From Sulfurifustis variabilis (lineage in GTDB: Bacteria > Pseudomonadota > Gammaproteobacteria > Acidiferrobacterales > Sulfurifustaceae): a DNA stretch of 64,000 nucleotides. The DNA lies in NCBI RefSeq assembly GCF_002355415.1, contig NZ_AP014936.1, forward strand, positions 2,790,001-2,854,000, in the 5' to 3' direction. This document shows, in pieces, positions 8,016 through 55,140 of the stretch (position 1 is the first letter of the stretch; the number at the start of each line of letters is the position of its first letter). Below the pieces are notes generated by a model. That model did no database searches, had not been told where the DNA came from, and was given only the letters and a program-made list of their open reading frames with translations. The position numbers were made by a program, and so were the translations under genes.

Positions 8016-10106
8016 ATGACCGCCGCCCGACGTCGAATTCTCGTCACCAGCGCCCTGCCCTACGCCAACGGGCCGATTCACCTGGGCCACCTGGTCGAGT
8101 ACATCCAGACGGACATCTGGGTCCGCTTCCAGAAGATGCGCGGACACGAGTGCTGGTACGTCTGCGCGGACGACACCCACGGCACGCCGATCATGCTCCG
8201 CGCCGAGCAGGAGGGCGTGACGCCCGAGGAGCTGATCCGGCGCATGCACGCGGAGCACACCCGCGACTTCGCGGCGTTCCGGGTCGCCTTCGACAACTAC
8301 TACTCCACGCACTCCGAGGAGAACCGCGTGCTCGCGGCCGACATCTACCGTCGGCTCCAGGAGGCGGGGCATATCGCCAAGCGCACGATCAAGCAGGCCT
8401 ACGACCCGGTGAAGCAGATGTTCCTGCCCGATCGCTTCATCCGCGGCGAGTGCCCGCGCTGCGGCGCCAGGGACCAGTACGGGGACGCCTGCGAGGTGTG
8501 CGGCGCCACGTATGCGCCCACCGACCTCAAGAATCCCGTCTCGGCGCTGTCCGGCGCGACGCCGGTCGAGAAGGAGTCCGAGCACTACTTCTTCAGGCTC
8601 GGCGACTTCGAGGGGAGGCTCCGCGAGTGGCTGCACCCGGACATCACGGCCGTGCGGCACGTGCAGCCGGAGGTCGCGAACAAGCTCACCGAGTGGTTTG
8701 CCGCGGGGCTCAAGGACTGGGACATCTCGCGCGACGCGCCCTACTTCGGCTTCGAGATCCCCGGCGCGCCCGGGAAGTACTTCTACGTCTGGCTCGACGC
8801 GCCCATCGGCTACATGGCGAGCTTCCGGAACCTCGCTGACCGCGCCGGGCTCGACTTCGACGAATGGTGGCGGGCGGGAAGCCCGACGGAGCTCTATCAC
8901 TTCATCGGCAAGGACATCCTCTATTTCCACGCGCTCTTCTGGCCGGCGATGCTCGAAGGCGCCGGTTACCGCAAGCCCACCGCGGTGTGGGCGCACGGGT
9001 TCCTCACGGTCGCCGGGCAGAAGATGTCGAAGTCGCGCGGCACGTTCATCAATGCGCGCACCTATCTCGAACACCTCGATCCGGAATACCTGCGCTACTA
9101 CTTCGCGGCCAAGCTCAACGGCCACGTCGAGGACATCGACCTCAACTTCGACGACTTCATCGCGCGCATCAATAGCGACTTGATTGGCAAGTACGTAAAC
9201 ATTGCAAGTCGAGCTGCGGGCTTCATCACTAAATTTTTTCAGGGAAAGCTAATTGAGAGCTCTCGCCGTGATCAGTACATACAAGACTCACAAGTAAGTA
9301 CTGATTTAGGGCTAGCAATCAGGTTGCTCGGTTCAGAGGATTTTATTGCCGAAGCCTACGAAGAGCGGGAATACCATAAGGTGGTGCGAGAGGTCATGCG
9401 GTTGGCTGACCTAGTGAATCAGTTTTTCGACAAGAATAAGCCTTGGGAGCTAGCGAAAAACACGAACCAAAGACTTCGACTGCACCAAGTCTGCAGTGAA
9501 TCGATCAATGCCTTTCGCATTCTAACGATCTACCTAAAGCCGATTCTCCCATCTCTAGCGGAGAAAGTAAGAAAGTTTCTCAATCTCGATGAATCTCTAC
9601 GTTGGGAGGATCTCCAGTATTACTACGAGATGAAGATCAACACTTATGAGCACCTAGCAACTCGCGTGGAGATGAAATCAATCGAAGCGATGCTGGAACA
9701 ATCTAAAGAGAGCCTGAGCATGAAGACGACGACCCCGGAGACGCCCGCCGCGGGCGCCGCGATCGAGCCGATCAAGCCCGAGATCACGATCGACGAGTTC
9801 GGAAAGCTCGACCTGCGGATCGCGAGGATCGTGAAGGCGGCCCACGTCGAGGGCGCGGACAAGCTGCTGCAGCTCACCGTCGACATCGGCGAGGGCCGCA
9901 CGCGCAACGTCTTCGCCGGCATCCGCTCCGCCTACGAGCCCTCCGCGCTCGAGGGCCGGCTGACCGTGGTCGTCGCGAACCTGGCGCCCCGCAAGATGAA
10001 GTTCGGCGTCTCCGAAGGCATGGTCCTGGCCGCCGGGCCGGGCGGCCAGGAGCTGTGGATCCTCTCCCCGGACAGCGGCGCGCAACCCGGAATGCGCGTG
10101 AAGTAA
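8016..10106 (+). CDS. metG: Methionyl-tRNA synthetase with low-GC anticodon-binding segment
   Basis: Charges tRNA-Met. At 696 residues it has the full long-form layout. The HIGH-type motif is HLGH (residues 21-24), a zinc knuckle starts with CPRCG, and the KMSKS loop is near residue 336. A helical anticodon-binding domain covers about residues 385-568 and a C-terminal OB-fold tRNA-binding domain follows ([16 protein letters not shown]). Bases from about 9170 to 9718 drop to roughly 45-48% G+C with different codon choice (CTA, ATA, TTA-type codons). Both flanks are near 68%. The anticodon region therefore looks imported by recombination, while the reading frame stays intact and key residues such as KPWELAK remain. 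An IS element begins 42 bp after the stop. Confidence 0.96.
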
Positions 10107-10224
10107 TCGCCCGCCGCCCTGGCGCGGACCGGTCAAGGGCCCGATAAACGTAAGCTTCCCCGCTTCGTAGACAAGCGGCAAGTAGAACTTTCTGGCAATC
10201 TTAACCTGTCAGGGGGTTCGAACA

Positions 10225-10491
10225 ATGAAGAAATCGCGGTTCACGGAGAGCCAGATCGTGGCGATCCTCAGGGAGGCGGAGTCGGGCGTGCCGGTGAACG
10301 AGATCTGGCGAAGACACGGCATCAGCTCGGCGACGTACTACAAGTGGAAGGCCAAGTACGGGGGCCTCGACGTCGCGGAGCTCAAGCGCATGAAGGAGCT
10401 CGAGACGGAGAACGCCCGGTTGAAGCGCATGTTCGCCGAGCTCTCACTCGAGAACCACGCGCTTAAGGATCTCATCCAAAAAAAGCACTGA
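10225..10491 (+). CDS. IS3-family transposase OrfA
   Basis: An 88-residue OrfA with a helix-turn-helix domain (FTESQIVAILREAESG through ISSATYYKWKAKYGG) that binds the terminal repeats. A leucine-zipper-like helix follows (LETENARLKRMFAELSLENHAL) for multimerisation. The ribosome-binding sequence is weak. The gene ends in a run of seven A and a G at 10478-10485. The heptamer A-AAA-AAG (10479-10485) is a textbook -1 slippery site that would join OrfA to OrfB. Confidence 0.93.
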   Translation: MKKSRFTESQIVAILREAESGVPVNEIWRRHGISSATYYKWKAKYGGLDVAELKRMKELETENARLKRMFAELSLENHALKDLIQKKH

Positions 10492-10526
10492 GCCCCGCCG
10501 AGCGCCGCGAATCGGCGGCCTACCTG

Positions 10527-11348
10527 GTGGGACAACACGGGTTAGCGGTGCGACGGGCCTGTACGGCGGTCGGGCTCTCCCGCGCCGCCTATTACCGGGT
10601 CCCCGTACCCGCCGCCGAGCGCGACCGCGAGGTCATCACGGCACTGAGCGGTGTGGTCGAACGGCATCACCGCTGGGGGTTCTGGATGTGTTTTGACCAT
10701 CTGAAGCGGGTGCAGAATCATCCCTGGAACCACAAACGGGTGTGGCGAATCTACTGCGCCCTCAAGCTCAACCTTCCCCGGCGTACCAAGAAGCGGCTTC
10801 CCAAACGCGATTCCTTGCCGCTTCAGGCGCCATCGGCCATCAACACCGTCTGGGCGCTCGACTTCATGAGCGATGCCCTTTACCGCGGGCGGACCTTCCG
10901 CCTGCTCAACATCCTGGACGAAGGCGCCCGCGAGGCTCTGGCGATCGAGGTGGACACCAACCTCCCGGCCGAGCGGGTTATCCGCGTGCTCGAACAGCTC
11001 AAGGCCTGGCGCGGCCTCCCGAAGCGCCTGCGGCTCGACAACGGGCCAGAGTTCACCGCGCAGCGCCTCGTTAAGTGGTGCGCCGACCACGGCATCGAGC
11101 TCGCCTACATCGCGCCGGGCAAGCCGAACCAGAACGCCTTCGTCGAACGCTTCAACCGCAGCCTGCGTCACGAGCTGCTCGATGCCTACCTGTTCGAGGA
11201 TCTCGACCAGGTGCGGGAGATGGTGTGGTGGTGGCTGTGCAGTTACAACGCGGAGCGACCGCACCGGTCGTTGAACCGCATACCGCCGATGATGTACCGG
11301 CAACAGGTGTTGGAACGGCGAAGTTCTACTTCTGGAGTGTCTGCTTGA
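10527..11348 (+). CDS. IS3-family transposase OrfB (DDE integrase)
   Basis: The catalytic part of the transposase, in the -1 frame relative to OrfA. It is probably made mainly as an OrfAB fusion after slippage at 10479-10485, because the frame is open back to that point. The annotated GTG at 10527 gives 273 residues. The DDE triad is visible as WALDFMSDAL, RLRLDNGPEF and NAFVERFNRS. An HTH_21-like N-terminal part and the C-terminal YNAERPHRSLN motif are present. No disruption is seen, so the element may be active. Confidence 0.92.
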   Translation: MGQHGLAVRRACTAVGLSRAAYYRVPVPAAERDREVITALSGVVERHHRWGFWMCFDHLKRVQNHPWNHKRVWRIYCALKLNLPRRTKKRLPKRDSLPLQAPSAINTVWALDFMSDALYRGRTFRLLNILDEGAREALAIEVDTNLPAERVIRVLEQLKAWRGLPKRLRLDNGPEFTAQRLVKWCADHGIELAYIAPGKPNQNAFVERFNRSLRHELLDAYLFEDLDQVREMVWWWLCSYNAERPHRSLNRIPPMMYRQQVLERRSSTSGVSA

Positions 11349-11386
11349 CGGGGAAGCTTACGTAAACACACACCCGGAGCAATGAT

Positions 11387-51388: not shown

Positions 51389-52738
51389 TCACCCGCGATC
51401 CCGGTCGGCTGGCTTTCGGCGCGCGGACAACCACGTCAGCAGCGCGAGGCCGGCCCCCGCGGAGACGGCCGATGCGAGGAAGATGCCCAGTTTGGCGCTG
51501 TCGATCAGATCCTTGCTGAACGCCAGGTGGGCGATGAACAGCGCCATCGTGAAGCCGATCCCGGCGAGCAGACCGCCGCCCGCCAGCAAGCGCCAATCGA
51601 GATCCGGGGGGCGTATCGCGATGCCCGAACGCACCGCCAGCCAGCCGAACGCCAGCACCCCGACGGGTTTGCCGAGAACGAACCCGACGAACACGGCGAA
51701 GGTGATAGAGGCGTCGACGTCGCCCGAAGACAGCGGGAAGCCGGCGTTGGCGAACGCAAAGAGCGGCATGACGACGAAACCGACCCAGGGATGCAGACTG
51801 ATCTCCAGCCGCTCGACCGGAGACAGCGTTTCGCGCGCCGCGATCTCGGCCACCTGCAGTGTCCGCCGATCCTTCGTGTCGCCGCTTCCCTCGTCACCGG
51901 CTGGATGCGCCACCACTCCGCCCAGGATCGCATACAAGCGCTCGTCGCTGACCCATCGGCGGGCCGGCGTCATCAACCCGAGTATCACACCCGTGACCGT
52001 GGCGTGGATCCCCGATGAGTCGACGGCGAGCCAGATGACGCCGCCCGCCGCGAAGTAGACCGGAATGCTTCGGACGCCCGTCAGCGCCATGGCGCGCACG
52101 ACGGCGACGCCAAGCGCGCCCAGGGCGAGCGCGCCCCACGCGATGTGGCTGCTGTAACCGATGGCCACGACCAGAATGGCGCCGATGTCGTCGACGATCG
52201 CGAGCGAGAGCATGAACACGCGCAGGCTTTGGGGAACGCGCGATCCCAGGAGCGCGAGGCAGCCGATGACGAACGCGGTGTCGGTGGCCATGACGGTGCC
52301 CCAACCCGCCTCGCCCGGCTGGCCCCATTGCAGCATCAGATACAACGCCGCGGGCACGAACATGCCGCCCAGGGCAGCGGCAATCGACAGCGCCGCCATG
52401 CGCGGGTTGTTCAGCTCGCCCAGGACCAGCTCTCGCTTGAGCTCCAGGGCGACGACAAAGAAAAACAGCGTCATCAGCCCGTCGTTGATCCAGTCTCTCA
52501 GCGAACGGCCGAACTCCAACGGGCCGAACTGAAGACCTATCCGGGTTTCCCAGGCGTCCAGGAAAAGATGGCCCCACGGGGAGTTGGACAGAACCAGGGC
52601 AGCGACGGTGAACAACAGAAGAACGGCGCCGCCGGCCGCCTCGATGCGCAAGAACCATGCAAACGGTCGGGTCAGCCGGTCGACAAGCTCCTTCGGCAGT
52701 CGAGCGAGATCGGTTGTAGCCGGCCGATCTTCACTCAC
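51389..52738 (-). CDS. nhaA: Na+/H+ antiporter NhaA
   Basis: A 449-residue inner-membrane antiporter with about 12 hydrophobic helices. It exports Na+ in exchange for H+ for pH and sodium homeostasis. The ion-binding aspartates are adjacent in SLAIVDDIGAILVV. Other family marks are LKRELVLGELNN, and AALALLGSRVPQSLRVF-like stretches. It is longer than the E. coli form (388), with an N-terminal extension and a larger loop between the last helices. No nhaR-type regulator is adjacent. Confidence 0.94.
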   Translation of the reverse strand: MSEDRPATTDLARLPKELVDRLTRPFAWFLRIEAAGGAVLLLFTVAALVLSNSPWGHLFLDAWETRIGLQFGPLEFGRSLRDWINDGLMTLFFFVVALELKRELVLGELNNPRMAALSIAAALGGMFVPAALYLMLQWGQPGEAGWGTVMATDTAFVIGCLALLGSRVPQSLRVFMLSLAIVDDIGAILVVAIGYSSHIAWGALALGALGVAVVRAMALTGVRSIPVYFAAGGVIWLAVDSSGIHATVTGVILGLMTPARRWVSDERLYAILGGVVAHPAGDEGSGDTKDRRTLQVAEIAARETLSPVERLEISLHPWVGFVVMPLFAFANAGFPLSSGDVDASITFAVFVGFVLGKPVGVLAFGWLAVRSGIAIRPPDLDWRLLAGGGLLAGIGFTMALFIAHLAFSKDLIDSAKLGIFLASAVSAGAGLALLTWLSARRKPADRDRG

Positions 52739-52859
52739 AGCGACCGGCTCGAAGGCTTTCCAAGAGCCGTGTCTTCCGATAGGCGCGGACGCTCAGGTGC
52801 TGCCACCGTTAATGAGTATGCCGGATTGAAGGAAATCTACAGTGTTCACACAACGAGCG

Positions 52860-53363
52860 TCAGTAATGCAAGCGGATGGTCAGACCCAGGTCGCGCCCGT
52901 CGTACAGGAAGCTGGCGGCGGAGAACGAAGGCGCGCCGAACGACGCTTTTGCGTCGTTTGAAAAGCCGTAGCCTTCCTTCGGGACTCCCAGCCAGTTGGT
53001 GTCGAGCTCGCCGTTCATATTCTCATCATGAATGGCGGCTATCGCATACGATCCCGGCGGAATGTCTTCAAAGGTGCAGCGCGCTTGTTCGTTGCGAATC
53101 TTTATTACCATGACATTCGTTGCCGAGCGCAGAAACTCGGTGGGAAAACCATCGGGTGATTCGAAAAGCGCACACGCTACGGTTCCCGCACTGCTTCTTA
53201 TGCCCAAAACCTGCACGTGGATGCCTGGGCACAGGGACGGGGTAGAGGCAACCGCGGCAAGATTCCCAAGCAGTAATACGGCAAACCACGCTCCACAGCG
53301 AACCCTCGGTGGACCCCGATCCTCCGGACGCAGCGCCGACTTCCGAATGGTCGACTCGTTCAT
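52860..53363 (-). CDS. Exported DUF2141 protein
   Basis: A 167-residue exported protein of the DUF2141 family with a signal peptide (FAVLLLGNLAAVAS). The beta-sandwich-like domain has the conserved segments GIRSSAGTVACALFESPDGF, FEDIPPGSYAIAAIHDENMNG and GYGFSNDAKASFGAPSF. Members are periplasmic and sometimes membrane-associated; function is unknown. The ATG at 53363 is preceded by GGGAGC. It is divergent from the stress-type genes downstream. Confidence 0.87.
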   Translation of the reverse strand: MNESTIRKSALRPEDRGPPRVRCGAWFAVLLLGNLAAVASTPSLCPGIHVQVLGIRSSAGTVACALFESPDGFPTEFLRSATNVMVIKIRNEQARCTFEDIPPGSYAIAAIHDENMNGELDTNWLGVPKEGYGFSNDAKASFGAPSFSAASFLYDGRDLGLTIRLHY

Positions 53364-53649
53364 CGAGCTCCCGCGCAAGCTCGCATCTGCCGCAGAAAAA
53401 CCCGCACGCTCTCGAGCAGCCCGACCGTTCTGTCCAGTCTACCCGCTATTCGAACCGAACGAACTCGTTACACGCGCCGACCCTGGATGATACGGACAAG
53501 ACGCACGACCGATGGAGAATCGTAAGTCTTACACGGGTGCAAAGCTATGTGCGTCACCGTACAGATCAAGGGTGCCGCCGCGCGCATACTGTGTGGCCAG
53601 TTTCAGATCATGGGTTATCCCGCATGAAGTCCGTCGTCCGGAGGCAGTC

Positions 53650-53823
53650 ATAAACACGCATCAGCTCAAAGGTCGAATCAGCCAAGCCAGCGGCAAGGTC
53701 AAGGAGATCACCGGCAGGCTTTTCGGCAAGAAGGCGCTGGAGGAGAAAGGACGGGCCGAGAAAACCGGCGGACGAATCCAGGCCGGGTATGGCGACGTCA
53801 AGGATGACATCAAGAGACACTGA
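53650..53823 (+). CDS. CsbD-family stress protein, ATA start
   Basis: A 57-residue CsbD-like protein (QLKGRISQASGKVKEITGRL, then ALEEKGRAEKTGGRIQAGYGD), a hydrophilic general-stress family. The family starts with a Met two residues before TH-QLKGR, and in the DNA that codon is ATA. GGAGG (53640-53644) lies exactly 5 bases before it. This is either a rare ATA start or a mutated ATG, which would reduce expression. A longer frame from an ATG at 53512 gives an unrelated N-terminus and is unlikely. Confidence 0.78.
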   Translation: MNTHQLKGRISQASGKVKEITGRLFGKKALEEKGRAEKTGGRIQAGYGDVKDDIKRH

Positions 53824-53930
53824 CCCCGCCGGCAATCCGCGATGAACCGCAAACGAGTTCAGTTTCGGAATTTCTTCGGTAGCGGCGCGGAAAGCCCGCG
53901 CGCGCAGTCGTGGTGACAGGAGACACAAAC

Positions 53931-54368
53931 ATGACCGACCAGGATCGAGACACCAAAGTGGCAGAGCGAGCGACAGACAACGATGTGCGTGGACCCGATA
54001 TGCGTCACGGGCCTGGACCGGAACTGATGGGCGCCAGCACGCTCATCGGCGACCATGTCCGCAACAAACAGGATGAAGAACTGGGCGACATCAAGGAAAT
54101 CATGCTGGACACGCGTACCGGCGAGGTCAGTTACGCGGTGCTGTCTTTCGGCGGCTTCCTCGGCATGGGGGACAAGCTCTTCGCCGTGCCGTGGGAAGCA
54201 TTGACGCTGGATACGGAGCACAAAGGCTTCCTGCTCGACGTTGACAGGGCACGGCTCAAGGACGCCCCCGGATTCGACAAGAGCAAGTGGCCCGACATGT
54301 CGGACCCCTCGTGGGTAAAGAGAGTCCGCAGCTACTACGGAAGCGGCACGAGCTCGGACCGCGCCTGA
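53931..54368 (+). CDS. PRC-barrel domain protein
   Basis: A 145-residue soluble protein with a PRC-barrel domain at about residues 40-115 (GASTLIGDHVRNKQDEELGDI, MLDTRTGEVSYAVLSFGGFL). Long charged tails lie on both sides. The PRC-barrel is a small beta-barrel seen in photosystem and stress proteins. ACAGGAGA precedes the ATG at 53931. It follows CsbD by 107 bp and probably belongs to the same stress-type set. Confidence 0.87.
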   Translation: MTDQDRDTKVAERATDNDVRGPDMRHGPGPELMGASTLIGDHVRNKQDEELGDIKEIMLDTRTGEVSYAVLSFGGFLGMGDKLFAVPWEALTLDTEHKGFLLDVDRARLKDAPGFDKSKWPDMSDPSWVKRVRSYYGSGTSSDRA

Positions 54369-54504
54369 ACACTCGTTCTCCCTCGTCGATGGGCTTCTTT
54401 CAGGGTGCTCATCGTCGGGCCATTGGGAACTCCACACCGCGCATTTCACCCGATCGCACGATGTATCATGCTCAAGAGCGGAAAAGGGAAATAAAGGAGT
54501 CGTC

Positions 54505-55140
54505 ATGGACAGACAAACAAGTTGGGTCGGCGTCATCGTCGTGGTTGCCGTTTCGGTGGCCGGCTGCGCGAGTACGCCGGTCGAGCGCAAAGAAGCGTCC
54601 CTGGTCGACCTGCACGACTCGATGGTGGCGATTCGGGGACAGATCGACAAGACGCTGGCGTCGCTCAATGGGCTGACGAGTGCTTCGCCGGACCGCCTCC
54701 CCGCGACCTACCAGCAGTTCGCCAAGGACACCGACAAGATCGCGGAACAGGCAGCGACGGTGGACGAGGAATCGCGGCAGCTGCAGACCCGAAGCGCCGA
54801 ATGGCTCGCGGGTTGGCGGAAGTCGCAGGCGGAGGTGCAGGACCCGGAGCTCAAGGCCTTGAGCGAGAGACGGCACGCCCAGGCCTTGGAGCGCATCCAG
54901 AACATCGACCGATCACTTGCGGAGGCGCGCGAGGCGTTCGCGCCCTTCGTTGCGAACCTGCAGGATGTCAAGCAGGTCGTCGGCAACGATCTCACGCCGA
55001 ACGGCGTCGCGGCCGTCTCAGGCACGGCGGTCGTGCAGAATGCGAATCAAGCCGGCGGCGCCGCCGCACGCGCGCTGGATGCGACGATCGCCGACCTTGA
55101 GGTGTTGACGCAGACGCTGACGCCGGTCTCCAGTCGCTGA
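54505..55140 (+). CDS. DUF2959 lipoprotein
   Basis: A 211-residue helical lipoprotein. The N-terminal lipobox is VAGCAS (residues about 18-23), so it is likely anchored in the outer membrane or inner membrane. The body is a long coiled coil (DLHDSMVAIRGQIDKTLASL through DRSLAEAREAFAPFVANLQD) typical of DUF2959. The short GTTGG-type leader before the ATG is unremarkable. It lies in the stress-type region between the PRC-barrel and Crp/Fnr genes and converges with the latter. Confidence 0.87.
   Translation: MDRQTSWVGVIVVVAVSVAGCASTPVERKEASLVDLHDSMVAIRGQIDKTLASLNGLTSASPDRLPATYQQFAKDTDKIAEQAATVDEESRQLQTRSAEWLAGWRKSQAEVQDPELKALSERRHAQALERIQNIDRSLAEAREAFAPFVANLQDVKQVVGNDLTPNGVAAVSGTAVVQNANQAGGAAARALDATIADLEVLTQTLTPVSSR

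Follow-up and report, generated by a model that had tools for sequence, protein, structure and literature searches.

The window analysed in this study is a 64-kb stretch of the single-contig Sulfurifustis variabilis skN76 genome, covering bases 2,790,001-2,854,000. On its forward strand, positions 8016-10106 hold metG, the gene for methionyl-tRNA synthetase (MetRS), as a single ORF of 696 codons plus a stop. In the product, Pfam placed the class I Met synthetase core (PF09334, 526 bits) at residues 8-400 and the C-terminal tRNA-binding domain at residues 600-693. The translation carries the KMSKS motif, and residues 5-695 align to 6wq6, a solved full-length MetRS. N395 and R399 lie in an NIASR motif (9198-9212, forward strand), where they align with E. 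coli positions 392 and 396 counting Met1. W477 (9444-9446, forward strand) comes directly after P476, the counterpart of E. coli P461 counting Met1, and thus matches W461 of the usual numbering. N395, R399 and W477 therefore correspond to N391, R395 and W461 in the usual numbering, which we take to be the anticodon contacts of E. coli MetRS, and all three are kept. Judged by its core, KMSKS motif and contact residues, the product is identified as a bacterial MetRS, with predicted charging of tRNA(Met).

The base composition of metG changes sharply at two points. GC and GC3 were 0.66 and 0.94 over residues 1-386, 0.45 and 0.52 over residues 388-568, and 0.71 and 0.97 over residues 569-696. A two-changepoint fit to GC3 delimited a segment at residues 386-564 (start 383-394, end 564-567; nucleotides 9171-9707), and its log-likelihood gain was 79.1; on a coarser grid, none of 100 permutations gained more than 9.4. 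When the whole 64 kb was scanned in 540-base segments at steps of 180, G+C was lowest at 9181-9720 (0.454). Leaving aside the segments across the edges of this one, the next-lowest value was 0.567, at 52741-53280. A second, milder low-GC stretch of the window extends over 52381-54540 (0.57-0.61). From the Pfam limits of the core and the C-terminal domain, the low-GC block of metG is therefore the helical anticodon-binding domain (ABD).

Four parts can be told apart along the forward strand of the gene. The native catalytic core ends at the GC3 changepoint and occupies 8016-9170 (residues 1-385, GC3 0.94). The imported ABD, delimited by the changepoint fit, GC3, trees and an AU test, occupies 9171-9707 (residues 386-564), with the left border within 9162-9195 and the right border within 9707-9716. 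It is followed by a linker of host composition (9708-9797) and by the native C-terminal tRNA-binding (OB) domain (9798-10103, residues 595-696, GC3 0.96). The original prediction had put the borders near 9170 and 9719, which agrees with the changepoints to 1 and 12 bp. Its claims that one frame continues intact across both borders, and that the switch points enclose the ABD and leave the core and the OB domain native, were likewise confirmed, the latter by Pfam limits, GC3, the core tree and OB identities. An in-frame Met codon lies in the linker at 9720-9722, and most of the relatives listed have one at the same or a nearby place. It could be an internal start or a trace of a fused Trbp111-like gene.

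Downstream of metG, an insertion sequence with inverted ends ACGTAAGCTTCCCCG, as read from the sequence, spans 10148-11363; we presume it to be IS3-like. Its inverted-repeat end at 10148 lies 42 positions past the last base of the stop codon, at the distance first reported. In its left part, a 52-base stretch also occurs at 441,491 and 2,665,888 of the genome. No evidence was found that ties the element to the domain replacement, and it lies beyond the native OB domain.

Separate histories of the parts of metG

The window metG was compared with those of 29 relatives, part by part. Identity was 69-84% in the core, 38-62% in the ABD and 74-91% in the OB domain, the last range leaving out L031 and L033, which are nearly without OB residues. 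Core and OB domain were closest to the genome's own family, as with G007 (core 83%, OB 91%), and the OB domain was only 75-78% identical to that of the Sulfuricella group. The ABD was closest to those of the Sulfurimicrobium/Sulfuricella group and G007, at 57-64%, and a single member reached 65% over 158 columns.

Trees were drawn from 129 sequences. The large ABD tree used 119 of them, 10 partial or duplicate sequences being left out, and the core tree used 62; a second ABD tree had 61 sequences, with L034 removed as a long branch, and the AU sets comprised 41 (ABD) and 40 (core). Core and ABD were compared by trees, and the OB domain by identities. The core fell with the genome's own relatives, and holding it with the Sulfuricella group was rejected (p-AU 1.2e-4). 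Conversely, a constraint grouping the window ABD with native-type ABDs from its family and close relatives was rejected (p-AU 7.1e-7). A grouping of the window, G007, the Sulfuricella group and L065 received support of 80/86 in the 61-sequence ABD tree; under other sampling it was missing from the best tree and was not rejected (p-AU 0.15). Because this grouping depends on sampling, the donor lineage is uncertain. The separate trees called for in the original prediction thus conflicted by AU tests in both directions, and together with the composition borders they bear out its reading of domain replacement by recombination. These results support the conclusion that the window metG is a chimeric gene formed by intragenic horizontal transfer.

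A close donor of the window ABD was searched for in 57 genomes of the order and 369 of the class. Among these genomes and the matches listed in a pattern scan of the genome contigs, the best reached 62-65% over the domain, and no close donor was found. The best phage and plasmid MetRS matches reached 41% and 48% identity, and none qualified as donor. The original prediction of a distant low-GC donor thus stood as regards distance; as regards composition, "low-GC" is ordinary composition beside a 67% GC host, since a GC3 of 0.52 is not extreme.

Further sources of the ABD were tried and rejected. IMG/VR scans with five ABDs gave no viral match for MetRS (two ABDs), LeuRS or GluRS and one weak CysRS-like match; this contig, IMGVR_UViG_3300012093_000008 (L445), carries a stretch 40% identical to part of a CysRS ABD. 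A metG gene is also present in several E. coli phage and plasmid records, about 108-112 kb in size. In the one phage compared, Cyrano, all three domains of metG (L349:2361-4394) were 98-100% E. coli-like, and this phage metG was set aside as a source. Conversion by a paralogue was likewise set aside, as the window genome has a single MetRS-core match at E <= 1e-100. Three weaker core matches exist in the genome, two of them at ileS and leuS. The low-GC ABDs did not behave as one mobile clade: six of the nine low-GC rows, the window included, fell in one 19-row group that also contains rows of ordinary composition, and the rest fell elsewhere. In the class genome G339, we observed two places matching the ABD (G339:C1:672591 and 2531093; L067) and two MetRS-core matches, and it probably has two metG.

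Recurrence in relatives and in other synthetases

The original prediction also called for a comparison with metG of close relatives, and this comparison revealed that the same kind of ABD replacement recurs among them. In genus g5, which includes Sulfuricaulis limicola (G004), the MetRS of G013 was 0.89-0.93 identical to those of five congeners in the core and 0.41-0.45 in the ABD. Its core lay within the genus at support of 100/99.9, and placing its ABD with its own genus was rejected (p-AU 6e-7). G015 of the same genus gave 0.87-0.89 in the core and 0.34-0.38 in the ABD against six congeners. Both proteins diverge from about residue 350, just after KMSKS, and are genus-like again from about residues 540-550; therefore, the exchanged tract is longer on the left than that of the window. 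In family f119, three members of one genus (G168, G284 and G422) share cores that are 95% identical and ABDs that are 43-53% identical. In genus g111, the pair G140/G263 showed identities of 0.94 (core), 0.54 (ABD) and 0.98 (OB). GC3 steps at the MetRS ABD were also seen at L065 (G096), L020 (G005), L066 (G381) and L081 (G284), as well as at L092 and L096, which come from two drafts of betaproteobacteria. Several of the f119 and g111 MetRS pairs were judged by identity rather than composition, and most of the relatives are many-contig drafts.

Among 236 sequences, with 5 duplicates out, 48 pairs had a core identity of at least 0.95. Their ABD identity had a median of 0.92 and a minimum of 0.46, and the median indicates that the ABD usually follows the core. 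A GC3 dip of over 0.15 at the MetRS ABD was found in 4 of 109 other class genomes (three of f119, one of g111), in a sample that leans to similar cores, being made up of the first 30 core-similarity matches and 80 further ones. ABD exchange is therefore not general. For the MetRS core, 111 rows (two of them the window) gave no dip of over 0.15 in the first or the second half, and for the OB domain 108 rows gave none. Two MetRS of unusual layout were also observed. That of G168 (G168:C53, L165, L276) stops at the end of the ABD and lacks the OB domain found in its f119 congeners, and that of G010 (G010:C32:5476-5948, L031) has an in-frame stretch of about 157 residues between its ABD and OB matches.

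Five control genes were examined in up to 16 genomes. The chosen controls were leuS, ileS, cysS and polA; valS came with the loci from the ileS search, and gltX was added as the neighbour of cysS. LeuRS ABDs foreign to the genus were found in G015 (GC3 0.48 versus 0.78 in the body of the protein) and G016 (0.51 versus 0.81). The LeuRS of the f119 genus g139 (G168 and G284), set against that of G423, showed identities of 0.35-0.36 in the ABD and 0.87 in the body, here without a composition step. In G014, CysRS is genus-like up to about residue 305 and beyond that point is divergent and lower in GC3, and from about the same residue the identity of the G140/G263 CysRS pair drops from 0.83-1.0 to 0.32-0.63. 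In the GluRS of G014, a genus-like catalytic part is followed by a foreign ABD that runs from about residue 375 to the C terminus (GC3 0.23-0.60). In G014, gltX adjoins cysS, and the foreign ABD blocks of the two genes (L414:10034-10522 and L414:8672-9082, both of lower G+C) have between them the genus-like catalytic part of cysS, with modestly higher G+C. No such foreign block was found in leuS, ileS, valS, cysS or gltX of the window genome. As separate observations, leuS of G168 (L295), G140 (L297) and G263 (L303) had stretches of 120 codons outside the ABD in which GC3 dipped by 0.19-0.25. In polA of f119 genomes (L398, L400, L402-L404), the middle (about residues 230-360) was far more divergent than the rest, with little G+C change and one GC3 dip of 0.16 (G381).

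To count such cases uniformly, a double test was applied to the worst 100-residue segment of each orthologue pair, requiring an identity deficit of over 0.3 versus the rest together with a dip in GC3 of 0.15 or more there in either member. Pairs were taken inside g5, four f119 genomes and g111. Those with fewer than 260 aligned residues, or with an identity below 0.75 outside the worst segment, were dropped, which left 379 pairs; G381, G007 and the window genome (G000) are left out of this count. The double test was passed by 16 of 28 pairs for metG, 11 of 28 for leuS, 4 of 22 for cysS and 6 of 23 for gltX, all six of the last involving G014. It was passed by none of the pairs for ileS (0/17), valS (0/28), polA (0/19) and 50 other orthologue groups (0/214), so that neither IleRS nor ValRS gave any sign of ABD replacement in these pairs. 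The nearest miss in the background, G015/G018 (deficit 0.29, dips 0.19 and 0.17), lay at the start of an untrimmed ORF. Counted by gene, 4 of 6 synthetases versus 0 of 51 others passed (Fisher p 3.8e-5), or 3 of 5 versus 0 of 51 once metG, the starting point of the comparison, is set aside (Fisher p 3.6e-4); these figures are rough, as pairs share genomes, synthetases enter in more pairs, and the background stretches lie near synthetases or polA. The genera were chosen as nearest or for their replaced-looking MetRS, and the metG counts are not rates.

Each half of the double test was also considered by itself. A deficit of over 0.3, whatever the dip, was present in 18 pairs for metG, 14 for leuS, 7 for cysS, 7 for gltX, 2 for polA, none for ileS or valS, and 7 of 214 in the background. 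With a 120-residue segment and no identity floor, such a deficit appeared in 9 of 32 polA pairs (the six listed all of f119), 2 of 26 valS pairs (the largest 0.32) and 0 of 26 ileS pairs. GC3 dips of over 0.15 also occurred in valS (G284, G263, G015) and ileS (G016). Since divergence and GC3 dips each occur alone elsewhere, neither alone proves import. It is the two together, in the ABD, that set metG, leuS, cysS and gltX apart. These results demonstrate that ABD exchange is recurrent, with independent cases in MetRS, LeuRS, CysRS and GluRS, and is absent from the sampled ordinary genes of the same genomes. Not every synthetase that has such a domain shows it, as no ileS or valS pair passed the double test.

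Origin of the exchanged domains

Two explanations would dispense with import. A misassembly, in which foreign reads were joined into metG, would account for the sharp borders, and an assembly chimera was the main alternative in the original prediction. The skN76 genome is a single contig of 3,958,814 bp with 67.46% G+C, assembled from PacBio RS II reads at 210x with 15-20 kb libraries (PMC5024460), and a 540 bp chimera is therefore very unlikely, as judged from this published assembly. The frame is intact across both borders, other genomes and other synthetases show replacement of this domain class, and none of the 214 background pairs passes the double test. From the published assembly and the recurrence in relatives, we regard an assembly chimera as exceedingly improbable.

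Alternatively, the ABD might have evolved fast in place while its composition drifted. It is the least conserved of the three parts among the relatives compared, and polA of f119 provides an example of a single domain diverging rapidly while its composition changes little. Against this, the GC3 change of metG has two sharp changepoints, and placement of the ABD with its kin was rejected. Furthermore, the congeners G011, G004 and G014 hold 0.81-0.82 identity in their worst 120-residue metG segment (two pairs). In f119, G168 and G284 carry an insertion after the PW motif that their congener G422 lacks and that f6 members, from another order, share. Evolution in place thus has a slim chance of being correct.

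We therefore consider it very probable that the metG chimera arose by in-frame replacement of its ABD from a lower-G+C proteobacterial donor, as one of a recurrent series in four synthetases. In this process, the MetRS ABD (about residues 386-564) would have been replaced by a homologous domain whose nearest type is that of Sulfuricella/Sulfurimicrobium, with core and OB domain staying native. The donor DNA was probably taken up by the cell, and recombination may have occurred between short conserved blocks that flank the ABD. The left border falls just after KMSKS, as in G013 and G015, or at a later conserved block, as in the window, and the right border near HLATRVDPK or slightly beyond. The ABD touches the tRNA and not the amino acid, and a foreign ABD can therefore work at once. 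The chimera would function because the ABD is a module that reads an invariant anticodon, and ABDs may behave as exchangeable alleles of essential enzymes in related bacteria.

What drives the exchange is a separate matter, and two of the drivers considered are compatible with import. Under neutral mosaicism, exchange would be random and the ABD would be the module in which a foreign copy survives visibly. This is quite plausible, and we hold it tentatively: the conserved flanks are natural anchors, and the ABD, which contacts only tRNA, tolerates replacement as a matter of general knowledge. The counts of zero weigh on the other side, namely those for the 214 background pairs, for either half of the MetRS core, and for IleRS and ValRS, whose anticodon domain presumably has the same fold as the exchanged ABDs. 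That IleRS and ValRS show no exchange speaks against a uniform process; a neutral process limited to tolerant modules still fits.

Diversifying selection, in which an agent that docks on the ABD (a toxin, a phage protein or an inhibitor) favours a foreign ABD, is possible and on balance unlikely. It would agree with the replacement of ABDs in four synthetases, with different enzymes affected in different species, and with ABDs that are 43-53% alike beside cores that are 95% alike inside one genus. No viral donor was found in the IMG/VR scans, no agent was found, and we know of none that docks on ABDs to drive such an exchange. In a rather speculative arms-race form, an agent would attack or mimic the tRNA-binding face and cells would escape by swapping the whole ABD, like antigenic cassettes. 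Co-change with the tRNA, by which the ABD would be replaced because tRNA(Met) or its modification had changed, is very improbable. The ABD does read the anticodon loop; nevertheless, the initiator anticodon stem-loop GGGCTCATAACCC was found exactly in 12 of 16 genomes, including G000, G015, G168 and G284 with replaced ABDs. In the drafts G013, G016, G422 and G423, the 17-base initiator pattern was found only at 3 mismatches, in 13 places versus 6 for the reversed pattern.

Relation to known systems and significance

Chimerism at the domain level is already known in synthetases. In chimeric GluRS2, horizontal transfer has given the catalytic and anticodon-binding domains separate origins (Dasgupta and Basu 2014, PMC3927822). 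GluRS2 resembles the window MetRS in having synthetase domains of different horizontal origins. It differs in being a second GluRS, specific for tRNA(Gln), whereas the enzyme here is MetRS (LeuRS, CysRS and GluRS in relatives), the exchange is repeated among congeners, and the anticodon-contact residues of MetRS are kept. The window enzyme shares with E. coli MetG (PDB 1qqt; full-length 6wq6) the full domain order and the anticodon-contact residues, and differs from it in that its ABD comes from another lineage than its core and OB domain. Mosaic housekeeping genes arise by homologous recombination in bacteria, and in these, too, part of a gene is replaced in frame by foreign homologous DNA. 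Here, by contrast, the donor is very distant and the block is one domain class, affecting several synthetases and not 50 other groups. Second, resistant types of MetRS spread by horizontal transfer, which is likewise a transfer of MetRS sequence; a whole gene is gained there, whereas only the ABD is gained here, beside a single core match at the threshold given above. In the titles and opening parts of abstracts of the open-licence papers listed by our searches, we found no report of repeated ABD replacement in MetRS, LeuRS or CysRS. Exchange that centres on the ABD and recurs across several synthetases in related bacteria appears to be a new form of the known domain-level chimerism.

Synthetases are textbook examples of genes that are inherited or transferred whole. 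Replacement of the ABD only, in four synthetases and among congeners whose MetRS cores are 87-95% alike, means that essential enzymes can evolve as exchangeable modules. Such exchange distorts trees built from whole synthetases, and the natural chimeras offer a way to examine how domains communicate and how tRNA is recognised. The recurrence points to a selective agent or to an unusually permissive module, and congeneric pairs that differ mainly in the ABD allow this to be tested.
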